A DNA stretch of 64,000 nucleotides from Phycisphaerae bacterium (GCA_011050235.1 DRGC01000097.1:1-64000); one strand, 5' to 3'; positions 44,944 through 52,979 are shown, numbered from the stretch's first letter. Notes: generated by a model not told the origin, from the letters alone. Numbers and translations are program-made.

Positions 44944-46233
44944 TTAGCGCGTCCGGAAGCTGATCCGCAGCCCACTGCTACGGAACGTCACACCGCTGCC
45001 GCGGCGACTGCCGCGTGCGCCGCGGTAACCCGTGCGTCCCCGGCTACTGCGGCTCACGTTGCGTTGGCGGGCACGACCTTGGTGGGTGCTGGTACTGGCC
45101 CTGTGCCGGCTCTGACGGTTTCCACGACGAGTCACCACCGCTCGATGATTGCGCCCGCGGCTCCGGCCGGAATAGCCTCGGCTGGAATAGCCGCGGCCGG
45201 AATAGCCCCGGCCGCGCGAGCTCACGATAACGTAGCCGCCATAGTAGGCACTGCCGCGCGAGAGGTAACTGCTGTAGGTCAACCGTCGGGGGCTCCGGTA
45301 ACGCGCACTTGTGCGATACACGACCTGCGCCGGCCGATACACCCGCGGCACGCCGGAAGTATAGGTATTGGTGAAGTATCCCCCATAGTGGACGTCGTCG
45401 TCGACATGGTCATCGGCATCGTCATCGGCATCGTCGATCACCTGGCGAGACCGGCTGGCCACCTCGTAGTGGCGCTGGTCGTAGGGCACGGGGTGCGTGT
45501 CGAACTCGAACGAGTGCGACCCGACCTTAACCTTGACCTCGCTGTCCGGCTCGTCCAAGATCAGCCGCACCACCACGCCGTCCGTGCCGCCCCACGTGGT
45601 CGACGTCCAGGTGACTTTCTCACCCCGGCCCCGGCCGATGGCGTCGGGGCCGGCGTAGACGTCCTGGGTCAGCTTGCGACGCTTTCCGGCCAGGTCATCG
45701 ACCGCCTTGAAGTCGAAACCGGCGAGCCGCTGGTCGTAGCGAGTGTTGATCCGGCGCAGCTCTCGCTGAAACGCGGGGCCGTTGCCGAACGTCTTCATCG
45801 CCTTGTGGCGTTCTTTCTGGCGTTTTGCGTCCAACGTCTGGACGAACGCTTTGCGCTTTGCGTGGTATGCGTCGACCGCACGCCAATAGGCGGCCTCGTC
45901 CAGGACCGTGCCGCGATGCGATTGCGTCTCGAACCCTTCGGTCTGGACGATCTCGGCAACACCATCGTCCACTTTCACCTCGCCATTCCATCGGCTGAAG
46001 ACCTCGTCGTCGCCGTCGAGAGTGTCGTCCACGTCACCCCACTGCAGATGGAGGTAGGCGACATACTTGCCGTCGACCTCTCTGGCGTAGGTCACGTAGC
46101 CGCGGAGCAAACTATCGTCACTGTTGCCGCGATTGAAAACCTGGTCGCGCCCGTCGAACTTGTCCTCACCGACAGCCACAGCCGCAAGCATACCTATCAG
46201 CGCCATCATCGTAAGGATCGTTGCGTGTTTCAT
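44944..46233 (-). CDS. Secreted protein with acidic linker and Arg/Gly/Ser-rich basic tail
   Basis: The 429-residue protein has a signal peptide (MALIGMLAAVAVGED), a folded region (about 25-275) with helices such as AYHAKRKAFVQTLDAKRQKERHKAMK, a highly acidic stretch DDADDDADDHVDDDVH near residue 270 and, from about 310, a low-complexity basic tail rich in Arg, Gly, Ser and Tyr with YSGRGYS-type repeats. The fold is unknown to me. The tail could bind polyanions such as polysaccharide, phosphate or nucleic acid, or participate in matrix formation. AGAAGGAGAACG precedes the ATG. Confidence 0.65.
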   Translation of the reverse strand: MKHATILTMMALIGMLAAVAVGEDKFDGRDQVFNRGNSDDSLLRGYVTYAREVDGKYVAYLHLQWGDVDDTLDGDDEVFSRWNGEVKVDDGVAEIVQTEGFETQSHRGTVLDEAAYWRAVDAYHAKRKAFVQTLDAKRQKERHKAMKTFGNGPAFQRELRRINTRYDQRLAGFDFKAVDDLAGKRRKLTQDVYAGPDAIGRGRGEKVTWTSTTWGGTDGVVVRLILDEPDSEVKVKVGSHSFEFDTHPVPYDQRHYEVASRSRQVIDDADDDADDHVDDDVHYGGYFTNTYTSGVPRVYRPAQVVYRTSARYRSPRRLTYSSYLSRGSAYYGGYVIVSSRGRGYSGRGYSSRGYSGRSRGRNHRAVVTRRGNRQSRHRASTSTHQGRARQRNVSRSSRGRTGYRGARGSRRGSGVTFRSSGLRISFRTR

Positions 46234-46570: not shown

Positions 46571-46653
46571 AAGGGGACGGATCGCTAATTAGCAACCCAA
46601 GACCAGACGCACCGGGGGGAGTAAATGGCTAATTAGTGCTCCGTCCCCCTTTT
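46571..46653. mobile_element. MITE-like element with imperfect terminal inverted repeats
   Basis: The left end reads AAGGGGACGG then a CTAATTAGC motif (46571-46593); the right end is its near-complement with GCTAATTAG and CCGTCCCC (46628-46653). The arms match at roughly 20 of 23 positions. The 83-base element contains no gene and abuts the 3' end of the NTPase gene. It might also fold as a terminator, since on the minus strand the arm begins AAAAGG and on the plus strand ends CCCCCTTTT. Confidence 0.5.
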
Positions 46654-46658
46654 ATCCC

Positions 46659-48590
46659 TCATCGCTTCCTGGGCTCAAGCGCGTCTTCGGCCTCTGATTC
46701 ACTGATGAGGGCACGAAGCCTCCGCACATTCGTCTCCCACCGCTCTCGCATATTGTCTATCGCCTTCTGCGGCGCCTCATACGATGGTAGCCGCTGCTCC
46801 CTCTCCAAATACTGACTCACAACATAGTGTGTCACACAAGGCAGCCTCAACGCTTTCCGGAAATGTGAGAACGACAGGAAGTTCTCAAATTGCCGGGACG
46901 TATCCTGCGAGAAGATCGGCAGTAGCTTTTCTGCCTCCCACAGCCTATTCATGAACCACAGGCTTCCGTCAAAGCGAGGCAGGATTTGACGCGGATCCAA
47001 GGGGTCCGTTGGCCGGGCCTCTTCCTGAGCGTCCCACGACTGGGCGCATGCCACAGCCATGTTGTCAGTGTACGCGCGTTCCTTAAGAAGCTGCCAGTGC
47101 CCATCGACAACGGGAATCTCCACCTGGTGCCCGCCGTGCCACAGCTCCTTCAAGAGTTCCTTATTCACAAGCTGCCTCTCACACTCCAGTAGGGCATTCT
47201 GTGGAAAGCCAATCCTGTTTAGATCGCTGACAACATCAGCCCACGGCCTCCCTTGTCTAAGAAGATAGATGGCGTAAGGGCCGACGAGGATTGAGTATGC
47301 ACTTCCCGGCGTCAGGCCCAAGTCATACAGGTTCAACACTAGGCACCTGTCATCGTCGGGAGTGAACATAACATCATTCCCACAAATGAGCCCATTGAAG
47401 TAATAGAAAGGCGTAACGAGGGGGGGGGCCCAGTTCTTCTCAACAGCATGTGCTCTTCGTTCGCTGAAGGAGGGACTGAAGGCAATCCGAGGGAGCAGAG
47501 CCAGCCGACGTCGGGCGGAACCATTTACGAGCTGATTGACAATCTCCTGCGCCTTCCTCGATGTCAGGCCATGGCTGCTCTCCAGATTGCTCGCAGCCAG
47601 AAGGTCCTCGCACAGATGCTGGGCCATTTCGGCGGGCGTCATCATGTCAAACCCTGCGCGAGCCTCGGTAATGTCGTACAGATCTATTCGTGCATGTTTG
47701 GTCGACGCGCCTACCACATGAGCCAGCCACTGCGAACGTTTCTCAATCAAGATCTCAGGGTTGACAGGATCGAGATTGACGCTCATTTTGTTGCGAAATG
47801 AGTTCCAGAATCGCGCGAGGTTTGTCCTTGTCTCTGGTCGGATAGGAATCAGAATCCGCCACAGTTCTCGTCCCTGCCCTTCTCTTACGGGATCGCATCC
47901 GTAGATTGCGGGGGGCTCTTCTGGAATGTAATCATGAATGATCCTGGCCAGCTCAGATTGACTCTCCTCTTCCAATAGATCGGAATTGTCGAAGATCCAA
48001 GAAATATACCATCTGCGTTCGTCCCCTCGGACATCCCGTGCGAGTCGGCACAAGTTGCGACTCAGCCATTCTTCCGTCAATTCGTCCCCGCCTTGAAGAT
48101 CCTCGGCAAGGCCCAACAGTGCTGTCCGCTTCAGGCTCTCGCTGAGTTTGCAGAATAACTCAGTTCGACGAAGTGGCTGTTCCACATGCGCCAGATCTAC
48201 ATACAAAAGGATATGCTGGCCGTAGGCCTCAGCTTGGATGGCATTTTCTTCGGGGGATGGCTTGCCCGCGGCACGCCGTAGCTTGTGACGGTGTAACAGG
48301 TAGTACTGCAAGAAGTACCGAGTGAACGTCGATTTTCCGGCACCGGCCCCACCTACGATGTGAATTACCTGCGGTCCTTCGGCGGGCGGCCAGAATCTCC
48401 GGAATAGCTCCTCTTCGGCAGTGTATCTTGCACTATCAGCCGAGGTGGGCGATTGTCGATCGAGAACGTAGTATTGGATCTTGGGATCTTCGAACGCAAG
48501 TGGCCAGAACTCGCTCGGCGCCCCCAATAGGTACTCGGTCAGAATTTCGTCAATCTCCTTGCGGACGGTTTCGCTAATGGCTTTGTTCAT
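46659..48590 (-). CDS. Large P-loop NTPase of unknown family
   Basis: The 643-residue protein has Walker A GGAGAGKST near residue 80 and a Walker B-like WYISWIFDNSD near residue 200, an AAA+/STAND or KAP-like arrangement. The C-terminal 350 residues are mainly helical with no domain I recognise; FYYFNGLICGNDVMFTPDDDRCLVLNLYDLG resembles a winged-helix or sensor region. There is no membrane segment. AGGAGAG precedes the ATG at 48590. It is the third gene of a minus-strand trio, eight bases behind the TIM-barrel gene, in an AT-richer island. Such NTPases are often the core of defence or signalling systems, but no homologue is identified. Confidence 0.6.
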   Translation of the reverse strand: MNKAISETVRKEIDEILTEYLLGAPSEFWPLAFEDPKIQYYVLDRQSPTSADSARYTAEEELFRRFWPPAEGPQVIHIVGGAGAGKSTFTRYFLQYYLLHRHKLRRAAGKPSPEENAIQAEAYGQHILLYVDLAHVEQPLRRTELFCKLSESLKRTALLGLAEDLQGGDELTEEWLSRNLCRLARDVRGDERRWYISWIFDNSDLLEEESQSELARIIHDYIPEEPPAIYGCDPVREGQGRELWRILIPIRPETRTNLARFWNSFRNKMSVNLDPVNPEILIEKRSQWLAHVVGASTKHARIDLYDITEARAGFDMMTPAEMAQHLCEDLLAASNLESSHGLTSRKAQEIVNQLVNGSARRRLALLPRIAFSPSFSERRAHAVEKNWAPPLVTPFYYFNGLICGNDVMFTPDDDRCLVLNLYDLGLTPGSAYSILVGPYAIYLLRQGRPWADVVSDLNRIGFPQNALLECERQLVNKELLKELWHGGHQVEIPVVDGHWQLLKERAYTDNMAVACAQSWDAQEEARPTDPLDPRQILPRFDGSLWFMNRLWEAEKLLPIFSQDTSRQFENFLSFSHFRKALRLPCVTHYVVSQYLEREQRLPSYEAPQKAIDNMRERWETNVRRLRALISESEAEDALEPRKR

Positions 48591-48598
48591 GGGCTCTC

Positions 48599-49438
48599 CT
48601 AGCTTGGCCAGTCCTCTGGCGAGGCTGCAAGGGAATGCCACAACTGAGGCCACAGTGACACGCACTGCTTCACAGTCGTAGGCAGCAATGAGTCGTTGTG
48701 CATCGCCGCCTCATCCGACGGATCGTTCTCTAGGATCCAATCGATTGGCTCCTGCCGTCTTATCAATGGACGAACGAATTTGACGCACCTGTCGTCATGT
48801 GTCCCAAGTGGGCAACAATGGCCGTTGTCGTCTCGTTCGTTTAGATGAACAGAATGGACTGGCAACAGCCTGCAAACATCCGGTTCAGCCTGGGCGTAGT
48901 TCCACCAGAAGGTATCCAACTGAAGGCCACAGTTGCTTGGAATGGAGTCTCTCGAAAATACTCTGGCGACCAGGCAGGTCCCGTCAAACGGAGCAAGATC
49001 GTGGGGAAAACAGTGATAACTAACGCGTACTCCGGATCTCGAAAGCTCGTCAGCAACTTCCAGGAGGACGGACGTTACCTCCTGGTAGCGAGTCATCCAG
49101 CGATCCCGGCGGCCTGAGGGGAAGTCCTTCGTTGAGCACTGCAGGATCAGAGTTGTTGTTTCAAAAAGCTCAAGATATTCCCTAGCCCAGGTTACGTAGA
49201 AGCTGGATCCACGGCCAGGCTTCAAGGGGGGGGCAACAAGACTACAAACACGAAGTTTGTGATGCCTCAACTCCTTCGCAAAGTCGGCCGCCTTCCAATC
49301 ACAGAAGCCAGCGACTTCGACTTGTGAGAAACCCCATGCACCGATGAGACTAAGTGTCTCGCGAAGTTCAGTATCCATTCTGTGTCGCAGGGACCAGAGG
49401 GATAGGCATAGTGGCGGGCTAGCGTTCTCCGTTGTCAC
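48599..49438 (-). CDS. IolE-like sugar-phosphate isomerase/epimerase-family TIM barrel
   Basis: The 279-residue protein shows the xylose-isomerase-like barrel: LSLWSLRHRMDTELRETLSLIGAWGFSQVEVAG at the start, VSYHCFPHD in the middle, GLQLDTFWWNYAQAEPDV and VHLNERDDNG, with LENDP near the end. The Asp, His and Glu of the late motifs could bind a divalent metal as in sugar isomerases or endonuclease IV-type enzymes. The conserved YHNHDFEF of typical members is altered to YHCFPHDLAPF. The start is GTG at 49438, which shares GTGA with the upstream stop, so it is translationally coupled to the membrane gene. Confidence 0.65.
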   Translation of the reverse strand: MTTENASPPLCLSLWSLRHRMDTELRETLSLIGAWGFSQVEVAGFCDWKAADFAKELRHHKLRVCSLVAPPLKPGRGSSFYVTWAREYLELFETTTLILQCSTKDFPSGRRDRWMTRYQEVTSVLLEVADELSRSGVRVSYHCFPHDLAPFDGTCLVARVFSRDSIPSNCGLQLDTFWWNYAQAEPDVCRLLPVHSVHLNERDDNGHCCPLGTHDDRCVKFVRPLIRRQEPIDWILENDPSDEAAMHNDSLLPTTVKQCVSLWPQLWHSLAASPEDWPS

Positions 49439-50550
49439 GAGGACTTCTCCTTGTGTGATCTTGCAGTGCTCAAGACTAGGCGAAGGTAGGCTGTGAAAAG
49501 AAGCACCAGTAGGAGTCCGCTACCAACCCAAGCCGAATACATGACTGGGACCGATACCCACTGACCTGCCGGTAGCAGGAGAATCGCAGTGCCGGCGAAC
49601 ATGATCGTCCCACCAAACGCAAGCGACAGTGCACGATGCAGCTTGACCTTGCGTGAGTGAAGAACGCACCCACGCTCAACGAGGGACTCAACAAAGCCTC
49701 TCGACTCGACATACCGATCGGAAGAAGAGAAGCTGTTCTCCGACTCGCTGGCCAGCCCTGCAACGTCTTCGAAGTATGTGTGCCAGTCTTCGTTCAAGAA
49801 ATGTACAAAGGCAGTGCCTCGATAGTGGTCCTGTTTGTCTATTCGAAAGAAGGCGTCCGCTATCAAACGTTCAATTCCGTTAAGCGAGTTGTCGATAGAT
49901 TGAAGCCTGATGACGGCAAGCGCTACTAGGATGGCTGATGCTCCTGCGACTGTCTGGGCCAGCGAGCTGAAGTAATAGGACCATAAGTTTCTCGGATCGC
50001 CAGCGCTTGCTCGATTAGTCGATTCCTTGGCTGTGGAGGATAGAATGCTTCCGCCATAGTGTTCGAGAGGGTAATGAGTCCCTTTCCGGATCAAATCGTT
50101 CCTGCCGTCGTGCAGCTCTCCAGAGGGATCGGCCCCGATGGTTGAAGGTCCCGAAGCAAGGGGCCGCATGCAGGTGGGGGCCAGGCCCGCCAATTGAGAG
50201 GGAGCAGACGGATAAGTCAGTTCACAGCGCCACTGCTCCCGACACAGGGCTGACGCTCCGGACGCCGCGGCAAAGAGGCGATCTTGTGGACCTGCCATTA
50301 GCATAAGCGCGGCCAAGGCCAGCACAATCGTTGTGATAGTCGTCGTAGTCGGCCTCTTTGGGAACGGACATACAGCCGTGAAAAAGCTCGGAGCCAATCC
50401 GATTCGCTTAGTCTCCCGTGGTTCTCTCATAATCGGTTTCATCCTCGGGCTCTTCGAGGCGAAGCCCTGTCCAAGGTTGGCTTCTGTATTTGAAGACCTT
50501 CCACCAAAACACAGGCCCAAGCCACAAAGCAAATCAAGAACAGCATTCAC
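49435..50550 (-). CDS. Membrane protein of unknown function (first gene of the trio)
   Basis: The frame encodes up to 371 residues; starts at 50550, 50442 or 50430 are possible and none has a strong ribosome-binding site. Hydrophobic segments lie near residues 73-87 (TIVLALAALMLMAG), 203-220 (VAGASAILVALAVIRL), 308-327 and 333-355. A cytoplasmic-looking central helix bundle (IDNSLNGIERLIADAFFRIDKQDHYRG) lies between the second and third. I recognise no family. Its stop overlaps the next gene's GTG, tying it to the TIM-barrel/NTPase genes as a membrane component. Confidence 0.5.
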   Translation of the reverse strand: MNAVLDLLCGLGLCFGGRSSNTEANLGQGFASKSPRMKPIMREPRETKRIGLAPSFFTAVCPFPKRPTTTTITTIVLALAALMLMAGPQDRLFAAASGASALCREQWRCELTYPSAPSQLAGLAPTCMRPLASGPSTIGADPSGELHDGRNDLIRKGTHYPLEHYGGSILSSTAKESTNRASAGDPRNLWSYYFSSLAQTVAGASAILVALAVIRLQSIDNSLNGIERLIADAFFRIDKQDHYRGTAFVHFLNEDWHTYFEDVAGLASESENSFSSSDRYVESRGFVESLVERGCVLHSRKVKLHRALSLAFGGTIMFAGTAILLLPAGQWVSVPVMYSAWVGSGLLLVLLFTAYLRLVLSTARSHKEKSS

Positions 50551-50972: not shown

Positions 50973-51896
50973 GTGGCACTCAACTGCGTTGTTTGCGTCA
51001 AACAGGTGCCGGACACCAAGCGCATCACCGGTGAGGCGATGACCGAAGAAGGCACCGTCAACCGCCGCGCCCTGCCGGCCATCTTCAACCCCGAGGACCT
51101 CAACGCCCTCGAGACGGCCCTGACCCTCCGCGCCGAGCATGGCGGGACGGTCACCGTCGTGACCATGGGCCTGCCATCGGCCTGCGAGGTGCTCCGCGAC
51201 GCCCTGGTCCGCGGGGCCGACCGCGCGATTCTCATCACCGACAGGCGAGCGGCCGCCAGCGATACGCTGGCGACCAGCTATATCCTGTCGTGTGCGGTCA
51301 AGAAGCTTGAGGCGGACATCGTGCTTTGCGGGCGCCAGGCCATCGACGGCGACACGGCCCAGGTCGGCCCGCAGTTGGCGGAAAAGCTTTCCCTGCCCGT
51401 AATCAGCTACGTCGAGGAGCTGGTGGGCATCTCCGACGGCAAGATCACGGCCAAACGGAACGTGGGCAATGGCTGGGAAGTCGTCACCTGCACACTGCCG
51501 GCGCTGCTGACGGTGATGGAGACGGCCAACACGCCGCGGCCGCCCGCTGCCAGGCGCGTGATGAAGTTCAAGAAGGCCCGCGCCAAGAGCGAGGTGGAGG
51601 CGATGGCCGCCGACCTGCTCGAAGGCGACTACGAGAACTACACGGCCGAGCTGAAGGCGACCGAGGTCGAAAAGTACTGCGCCAACCTCGCCGACCGCGG
51701 CCTGCTGATCGAGCAGTGGGACCTGGATGACCTCGAGGCCGATCTGACCTGGTGCGGCCGCAGCGGCAGCCCCACCAAGGTCCATCGTATCCAGTCCGTC
51801 GTGCTGACCGGCGGCGAGTACCGCGAGTTTGCCGCGACCGACGACGGCATCGCCGAACTGATCGGCGAACTCATCCACGACCACACGGTTGGTTAA
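50973..51896 (+). CDS. etfB: Electron-transfer flavoprotein beta subunit
   Basis: The 307-residue protein begins LNCVVCVKQVPDTK and carries GADRAILITDRR and GRQAIDGDTAQVGPQLAEKL, diagnostic of EtfB/FixA. It accepts electrons from acyl-CoA dehydrogenase. It is longer than typical (about 250) because of a C-terminal extension. The GTG start at 50973 follows GAGGAG at 50961-50966; upstream frame sequence is not coding-like. It is the first gene of etfB-etfA-acd. Confidence 0.92.
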   Translation: MALNCVVCVKQVPDTKRITGEAMTEEGTVNRRALPAIFNPEDLNALETALTLRAEHGGTVTVVTMGLPSACEVLRDALVRGADRAILITDRRAAASDTLATSYILSCAVKKLEADIVLCGRQAIDGDTAQVGPQLAEKLSLPVISYVEELVGISDGKITAKRNVGNGWEVVTCTLPALLTVMETANTPRPPAARRVMKFKKARAKSEVEAMAADLLEGDYENYTAELKATEVEKYCANLADRGLLIEQWDLDDLEADLTWCGRSGSPTKVHRIQSVVLTGGEYREFAATDDGIAELIGELIHDHTVG

Positions 51897-51914
51897 CGAC
51901 TCAACGAGATAATC

Positions 51915-52979
51915 ATGATTGAAGTCAACAGACAAGGTGAGGTTTGGATCTTCGCGGAGCAGGAAGACGGCAAGCTGTCCGACGTGCCTCTGGAGTTGAT
52001 GAGCAAGGGCCGAGAACTGGCCGACAAGCTGAGCGTGCCGCTGGCGGCGGTGCTGTTGGCCGCCGATGGGGGCGACATGCCCGCCGCCCTGATCGCCCAG
52101 GGCGCCGACAAGGTCTACGTCGTCATCGATGAGCGGCTGGGTCACTATCAGGCCGCCGGCTACGGTCACGTGCTGTGCAGCCTTATCGAGCAGCACACGC
52201 CGCAGATCTTCCTGTATGGCGCCACCCCCATCGGCCGCGACCTGGCCCCCACCGTCGCCTCGGCCATGAAGTGCGGTCTGACGGCCGACTGCACCGACTT
52301 GCAGATCGGCGACCACAAGCCGGCCGGGAGCGATGAGGTCCATAAGAACCTGCTTCTGCAGATTCGCCCGGCCTTTGGCGGCAATATCATCGCGACAATC
52401 GTCAACTTCGATCGCTGGCCTCAGATGGCCACCGTCCGGGAGGGCGTTATGCCCCTGGGCGAGCCCGACACCGCTCGCAGCGGCGAGATCGTCGAGTGCG
52501 CAGCCAACCTCGACGGCGTCCAACTGCCGTTGGAGATCATCGAGAGCCATCGCCGCGAGAAGGCCGTCAACCTCAAGGCCTCCCGAATCATCGTCGCCGG
52601 CGGCGCGGGCGTCGGCAGCAAAGACAATTTTCAGTTGATCTGGGACCTGGCCCATTGCCTCGGCGCCGCCGTGGGCGGTTCGCGGGCAGCCATCGATCTG
52701 GGGTTCGTCGACCACGACCACCAGATCGGCCAGACCGGCACGACCGTCCGCCCCGCGCTGTACATCGCCTGCGGGATCAGCGGAGCGGTTCAGCACGCAG
52801 CCGGCATGAGCGAGGCCGGCAAGATCCTGGCTATCAACACCGACGCGGACGCGCCGATCATGGGCTTGGCCCATTTCGGCATCGTCGGCGATCTGAACGT
52901 TGTAATCCCCAAGATGATCAAGATCATCCGCAGCGGCGCCGGCGTCGAGCAGGCCGCCCAACAAGTCGCCGACGCCTAG
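51915..52979 (+). CDS. etfA: Electron-transfer flavoprotein alpha subunit
   Basis: The 354-residue protein has the EtfA FAD-binding domain: GGAGVGSKDNFQLIWDLA, GSRAAIDLGFVDHDHQIGQTG and YIACGISGAVQHAAGM, followed by INTDADAPIMGLAHFGIVGD. It forms the FAD-containing ETF heterodimer with EtfB. The gene begins 18 bases behind etfB and ends 16 bases before the acyl-CoA dehydrogenase. Confidence 0.95.
   Translation: MIEVNRQGEVWIFAEQEDGKLSDVPLELMSKGRELADKLSVPLAAVLLAADGGDMPAALIAQGADKVYVVIDERLGHYQAAGYGHVLCSLIEQHTPQIFLYGATPIGRDLAPTVASAMKCGLTADCTDLQIGDHKPAGSDEVHKNLLLQIRPAFGGNIIATIVNFDRWPQMATVREGVMPLGEPDTARSGEIVECAANLDGVQLPLEIIESHRREKAVNLKASRIIVAGGAGVGSKDNFQLIWDLAHCLGAAVGGSRAAIDLGFVDHDHQIGQTGTTVRPALYIACGISGAVQHAAGMSEAGKILAINTDADAPIMGLAHFGIVGDLNVVIPKMIKIIRSGAGVEQAAQQVADA

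Follow-up and report, generated by a model that had tools for sequence, protein, structure and literature searches.

A membrane protein, a TIM barrel and a P-loop NTPase are encoded, in that order, by three codirectional minus-strand genes at positions 46659-50550 of a 64,000-nt stretch of Phycisphaerae bacterium DNA (hereafter the window). The trio is a real, conserved and rare operon, because a complete copy recurs on a contig that its depositors assigned to an alphaproteobacterial MAG, and its composition and distribution indicate that it has probably been transferred horizontally. The best explanation is a three-component, NTPase-switched conflict module of the anti-phage type, in which the barrel and the membrane protein replace a nuclease; the defensive role is what we infer, and we assign this reading a probability of about 0.45.

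A Low-GC Operon among Metabolic Genes

The preliminary description had placed three overlapping or nearly touching ORFs in an AT-richer island, and the island, the junctions and all three ORFs at the coordinates it gave were confirmed. The island has a GC content of 54.8%, against a mean of 64.8% (sd 1.5%, minimum 61.1%) for 1033 other segments of its size, and GC3 is 0.58-0.62 in the trio genes versus about 0.78-0.91 in most clearly coding neighbors. The gene for the membrane protein (P0003; 49435-50550, minus strand; 371 aa from its GTG) is followed by that for the barrel (P0002; 48599-49438, minus strand; 279 aa), whose GTG start, preceded by the Shine-Dalgarno sequence AAGGAG, overlaps the TGA stop of the membrane gene (GTGA, 49435-49438). 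A gap of eight bases separates the barrel stop from the ATG (48590) of the NTPase gene (P0001; 46659-48590, minus strand; 643 aa). A longer NTPase ORF extending to 48665 is unlikely because a second Shine-Dalgarno sequence, AGGAG, immediately precedes the ATG at 48590. The flanking etfBA, butyrate-kinase-like and phosphotransacetylase-like genes are metabolic. Adjoining the island, positions 44944-46233 encode an apparently secreted protein whose tail, rich in Arg, Gly and Ser, is RGG-like; such a protein is unusual for a bacterium.

The operon had also been credited with one strong promoter, a claim that did not survive the motif scan: the single promoter-like TTGACA-17-TACATT upstream of the operon (50684-50656, minus strand) does not rise above chance, with three sites found against 2.5 expected. 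The MITE-like element described beside the genes is real. It is an inverted repeat (46573-46648) with 21-nt arms (46573-46593 and 46628-46648) that are 90% complementary, it has three further copies of 86-92% identity in the same genome, and as RNA it is predicted to form a hairpin of -40.4 kcal/mol (z -2.8). Lying directly 3' of the NTPase stop, it may serve as a terminator. The four copies (GGGGACGGA...TAATTAG), all intergenic, are located at window 46573-46648, G000:C44:13606-13689, G000:C44:14581-14660 and G000:C77:8253-8333, the two on contig C44 about 1 kb apart, and possibly constitute a REP/MITE family.

A Second Complete Trio and Its Sparse Distribution

An alignment (A4) of P0001 with its distant relative P0004 was used as a query against 84,980 genomes and detected one full-length P0001 relative (E 1e-122), at the locus L104; the alphaproteobacterial assignment of the L104 contig is as deposited. 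There, a barrel (P0011) and a membrane protein (P0012) are encoded immediately upstream of the NTPase (P0010) in the same order as in the window, and the gene junctions are ATGA/ATGA overlaps, a tighter coupling than that of the window trio. The NTPases are 35% identical over 638 residues, the barrels 36% over 268 residues, and the membrane proteins, which occupy the same operon position, 29% over 177 residues (P0003 187-361). GC content again falls below that of the flanks, which contain DnaJ-like and SPFH-like genes identified by eye. Thus, rather than being scattered separately in related genomes, an outcome that the preliminary description had set against its own proposal, the genes recur as a full trio. 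It is very improbable that the three low-GC genes are coincidental neighbors acquired independently and lacking a joint function: P0004 has neither partner, as this explanation would allow, but the L104 locus keeps the full trio in the same order, with its coupling and with similar identities for barrel and NTPase, and this refutes coincidence unless the L104 contig is an artifact.

These two are the only complete trios known. P0001 is absent from 34 genomes of the same family, and the trio is absent from all relatives sampled. In a 392-genome sample of the phylum, P0001 retrieved a single, distant relative, P0004 (L015; blastp E 2e-15), the closest stand-alone NTPase relative, which has neither a barrel nor a membrane protein as a neighbor. 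No barrel ortholog was found in the phylum sample; the one barrel match (L112/L113; E 5.7e-13) stands without an NTPase or membrane protein gene beside it, and relatives of the barrel from Phycisphaerae and plasmids resemble common sugar isomerases/epimerases and lack the trio. Single-sequence scans of genome-contig and viral-contig collections with P0001 yielded no relative, and P0001 had no match among plasmid and phage records. Neither P0003, P0004, P0010 nor P0012 had relatives in the collections against which each was searched, viral-contig scans with profiles A3, A5, A6 and A7 were likewise negative, and matches to P0003 in two genomes (G114 and G163) were at chance level and contained internal stops.

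No relative offered a syntenic empty site: each of those examined differs in the sequence that precedes etfB in the etfBA operon (window 50973-52979; relatives L135-L140). This region may be a variable insertion site.

A Sugar-Enzyme Fold with a Remodeled Active Site

P0002 matches the Pfam family AP_endonuc_2 with an E value of 8.6e-4, below the curated cut-off. An AF2 model built from a two-sequence alignment (pLDDT 78, pTM 0.82) is a TIM barrel whose best PDB matches are 3-keto-beta-glucopyranoside 1,2-lyases, AtOGE, and sugar isomerases/epimerases (Foldseek E to 2.2e-13), with VIA Z scores of about 21-22 against AL1/BT1; the closest protein by profile is AtOGE (8bvk; E 1.1e-8). AF2, Foldseek and VIA together place P0002 among the eight-stranded TIM barrels of the xylose-isomerase-like superfamily (AP_endonuc_2). 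The preliminary description of an IolE-like barrel with altered motifs was therefore right about the xylose-isomerase-like fold and the altered motifs and too narrow in naming IolE, since 3-keto-glycoside lyases and sugar isomerases/epimerases are structurally closest to the barrel; IolE structures are among the fold matches, ranked below the lyases, and the three-gene unit holds no inositol gene. The suggestion that the barrel might be a nuclease found no footing, with nothing in the barrel pointing to nuclease activity.

In AtOGE the metal is bound by His132, Asp163, His189 and, weakly, Glu233, and the catalytic base is His134 (PMC10628242). Counting along the alignments, the first three ligands correspond to H142, D175 and H198 of P0002, and the equivalent of Glu233 would be E237, which lies where strand 8 of the model ends. 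The base His134 is replaced by F144 in P0002 and by Tyr in P0011. The two barrels share the motifs YHC[FY]xHD, HLNxR, a CC pair and LENDP, and QLDT is a further conserved motif of P0002. The barrel motifs are thus altered in a conserved way, so that metal binding has probably been kept and, as the aligned residues indicate, neither copy retains the lyase base. The 3-keto-glycoside beta-eliminases (AtOGE, AL1 and BT1) and xylose-isomerase-like TIM barrels have the fold and the H/D/H/E metal site in common with P0002; the trio barrel differs from the beta-eliminases in the replacement of the base His by Phe/Tyr, in having HLNxR in place of HxKD, in its conserved CC pair and in the lack of a partner oxidoreductase.

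The nearest relatives of the barrel, together with its retained metal-site residues and flanks counted as metabolic in both genomes, favor the main alternative to defense, namely an operon for carbohydrate sensing or envelope signaling with the barrel as a sugar-binding or sugar-converting component, the membrane protein as a reporter of the state of the envelope and the NTPase as a signal-transducing ATPase. We consider this unlikely, given the loss of the catalytic His in both barrels, the absence of any linked transporter, oxidoreductase, regulator or other sugar gene, the foreign composition and very sparse distribution of the trio, and the kinship of its NTPase with nuclease fusions found at defense-type loci.

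A Membrane Protein with a Conserved Core

Although its GTG start gives 371 aa, P0003 may truly begin at M37 or M41. Hydropathy indicates a signal or anchor helix at about 69-87, a variable linker, a transmembrane (TM) helix at 196-214, a soluble helical domain at about 215-305 and a TM hairpin at about 308-326 and 342-360. The TM helix, soluble helical domain and hairpin make up the conserved core (187-361), which P0003 and P0012 have in common together with the anchor. No family match for P0003 was found in Pfam, NCBIfam, PADLOC or PHROG.

Such a protein, encoded first in a compact, mobile cassette of overlapping genes with a sporadic distribution, could be imagined as the toxin of a toxin-antitoxin-like or plasmid/mobile-element maintenance cassette, restrained by the NTPase and the barrel. 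This is distinctly improbable: a search of 72,556 plasmid records gave no match, and an antitoxin as large as this NTPase (643 aa) would be unusual.

The NTPase Belongs to a Family of Nuclease Fusions

P0001 contains a Walker A motif (GGAGAGKST, 80-88), a Walker B-type FDNSD (200-204), RPET (251-254), R285 and RRRL (360-363), and it shares with P0010 the Walker A, DNxD, RPET, RRRL, NLYDLG and AYTDNM motifs. The AF2 model of P0001 is unusable (pLDDT 34). The preliminary label of a STAND/KAP-like NTPase holds to the extent that P0001 is a P-loop NTPase of the KAP/NACHT/AAA_16-like class; P0001 and P0010 match NACHT, nSTAND_NTPase5 and NPHP3_N only weakly, and neither matches the Pfam family KAP_NTPase (PF07693). 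Likeness to the KAP NTPases comes only through P0004, which scores above the Pfam cut-off for that family. No TM segment was found within the NTPases (maximum 19-residue hydropathy 1.15 for P0001 and 1.09 for P0010), and membrane association would, unlike in KAP NTPases, come from a separate protein.

Profile searches located further members of the family. Profile A7 matches P0004 (probability 99.1, E 1.6e-18) and the profile of the PDDEXK-NTPases (A1; probability 97.3, E 1.7e-11, 250 columns). Most other members of the family carry an N-terminal restriction-type nuclease domain: the PDDEXK-NTPases (PHROG 14719 type) are proteins of about 810-890 residues that combine an N-terminal HsdR_N-like PDDEXK domain with a KAP/NACHT/AAA_16-like NTPase. 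The NTPase core homologous to theirs is present in the trio NTPase, with GxxGxGK[ST]xF, DNxD and an RRxL/NLF region in common, as is the C-terminal half, where a winged helix is suggested. The trio NTPase, in contrast, has no nuclease domain, with no HSDR_N match in P0001 and only about 75 residues preceding its Walker A motif, and is coupled instead to the barrel and the membrane protein.

The wider NTPase family is often found at defense-type loci; the trio itself is not, and the nuclease-fused cousins in defense neighborhoods are about 14-22% identical to the trio NTPase. On one contig a HerA-like ATPase gene lies about 6 kb from a family member. At L099:1901-9194, DndC (E 5e-152), a short DndD/PbeC-like ATPase and an HNH nuclease are followed by a PDDEXK-NTPase gene that is split by an IS3-like element, and a DndA/SspA-like desulfurase gene lies on the other strand; this PDDEXK-NTPase is possibly a phosphorothioation-linked nuclease. 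In two genomes of one family (L101:7111-10020 and L102:6004-8940), a gene for an M78/CapP-like metallopeptidase lies directly upstream of the PDDEXK-NTPase gene, making the two a candidate two-gene defense pair.

A Candidate Conflict Module

Several findings count for a conflict module: the complete trio in L104, the GC dip at both sites, the absence from relatives, the variable sequence upstream of etfB, the barrel model with its active-site mapping, and the links of the NTPase family to PDDEXK fusions, a Dnd-type locus and CapP-like M78 peptidases. Counting against it, no known defense genes were found beside either copy of the trio, the proteins have no PADLOC match, P0004 occurs without partners, the defense neighborhoods are those of nuclease-fused cousins, and there are two trios only. 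The resemblance to modular defense operons noted in the preliminary description accordingly holds for the coherence of the operon and for the settings of the wider NTPase family, and fails in that neither copy lies in a recognizable defense island.

If the trio is such a module, the NTPase would be an ATP-driven sensor or switch, and the barrel, soluble and metal-binding, would act alongside it, either relaying the signal or producing or detecting a small molecule that resembles a sugar or nucleotide. The membrane protein would be the effector, damaging or depolarizing the host membrane by means of the conserved soluble domain and the TM hairpin, and would stand in for the PDDEXK nuclease of the sister systems. 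A bolder version is doubtful: that the trio represents a new class of NTPase-switched immunity, in which the PDDEXK nuclease has given way to a dedicated membrane protein and a metal-binding barrel with a remodeled active site, and membrane killing might be set off by an unusual signal, derived from a sugar or a nucleotide, that the barrel produces or detects.

The preliminary description could match the arrangement to no described system, and nor could we. No PADLOC family covers the three proteins: none has a significant match in PADLOC-DB 2.0.0, where the best E value (0.032, to mad3/mad8) involves the P-loop region only. Neither the membrane protein/barrel/NTPase trio nor the combination of such a barrel with a membrane protein was found in the open-access literature searched. 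Modular STAND/Avs-like anti-phage systems join a signal-transduction-type NTPase to separable effector modules, and their likeness to the trio is a working analogy; unlike them, the trio has no PADLOC family and no recognized effector domain.

The trio is a small, precise and testable cassette that is missing from catalogs of defense systems, recurs in two very distant bacteria and pairs a fold known from sugar enzymes with an NTPase of the switch type. Should the barrel prove central, the novelty would possibly be categorical. If the trio is immune in function, bacterial immunity would gain a barrel enzyme among its known components, and within one NTPase family a membrane protein would have taken the place of a nuclease as the effector.
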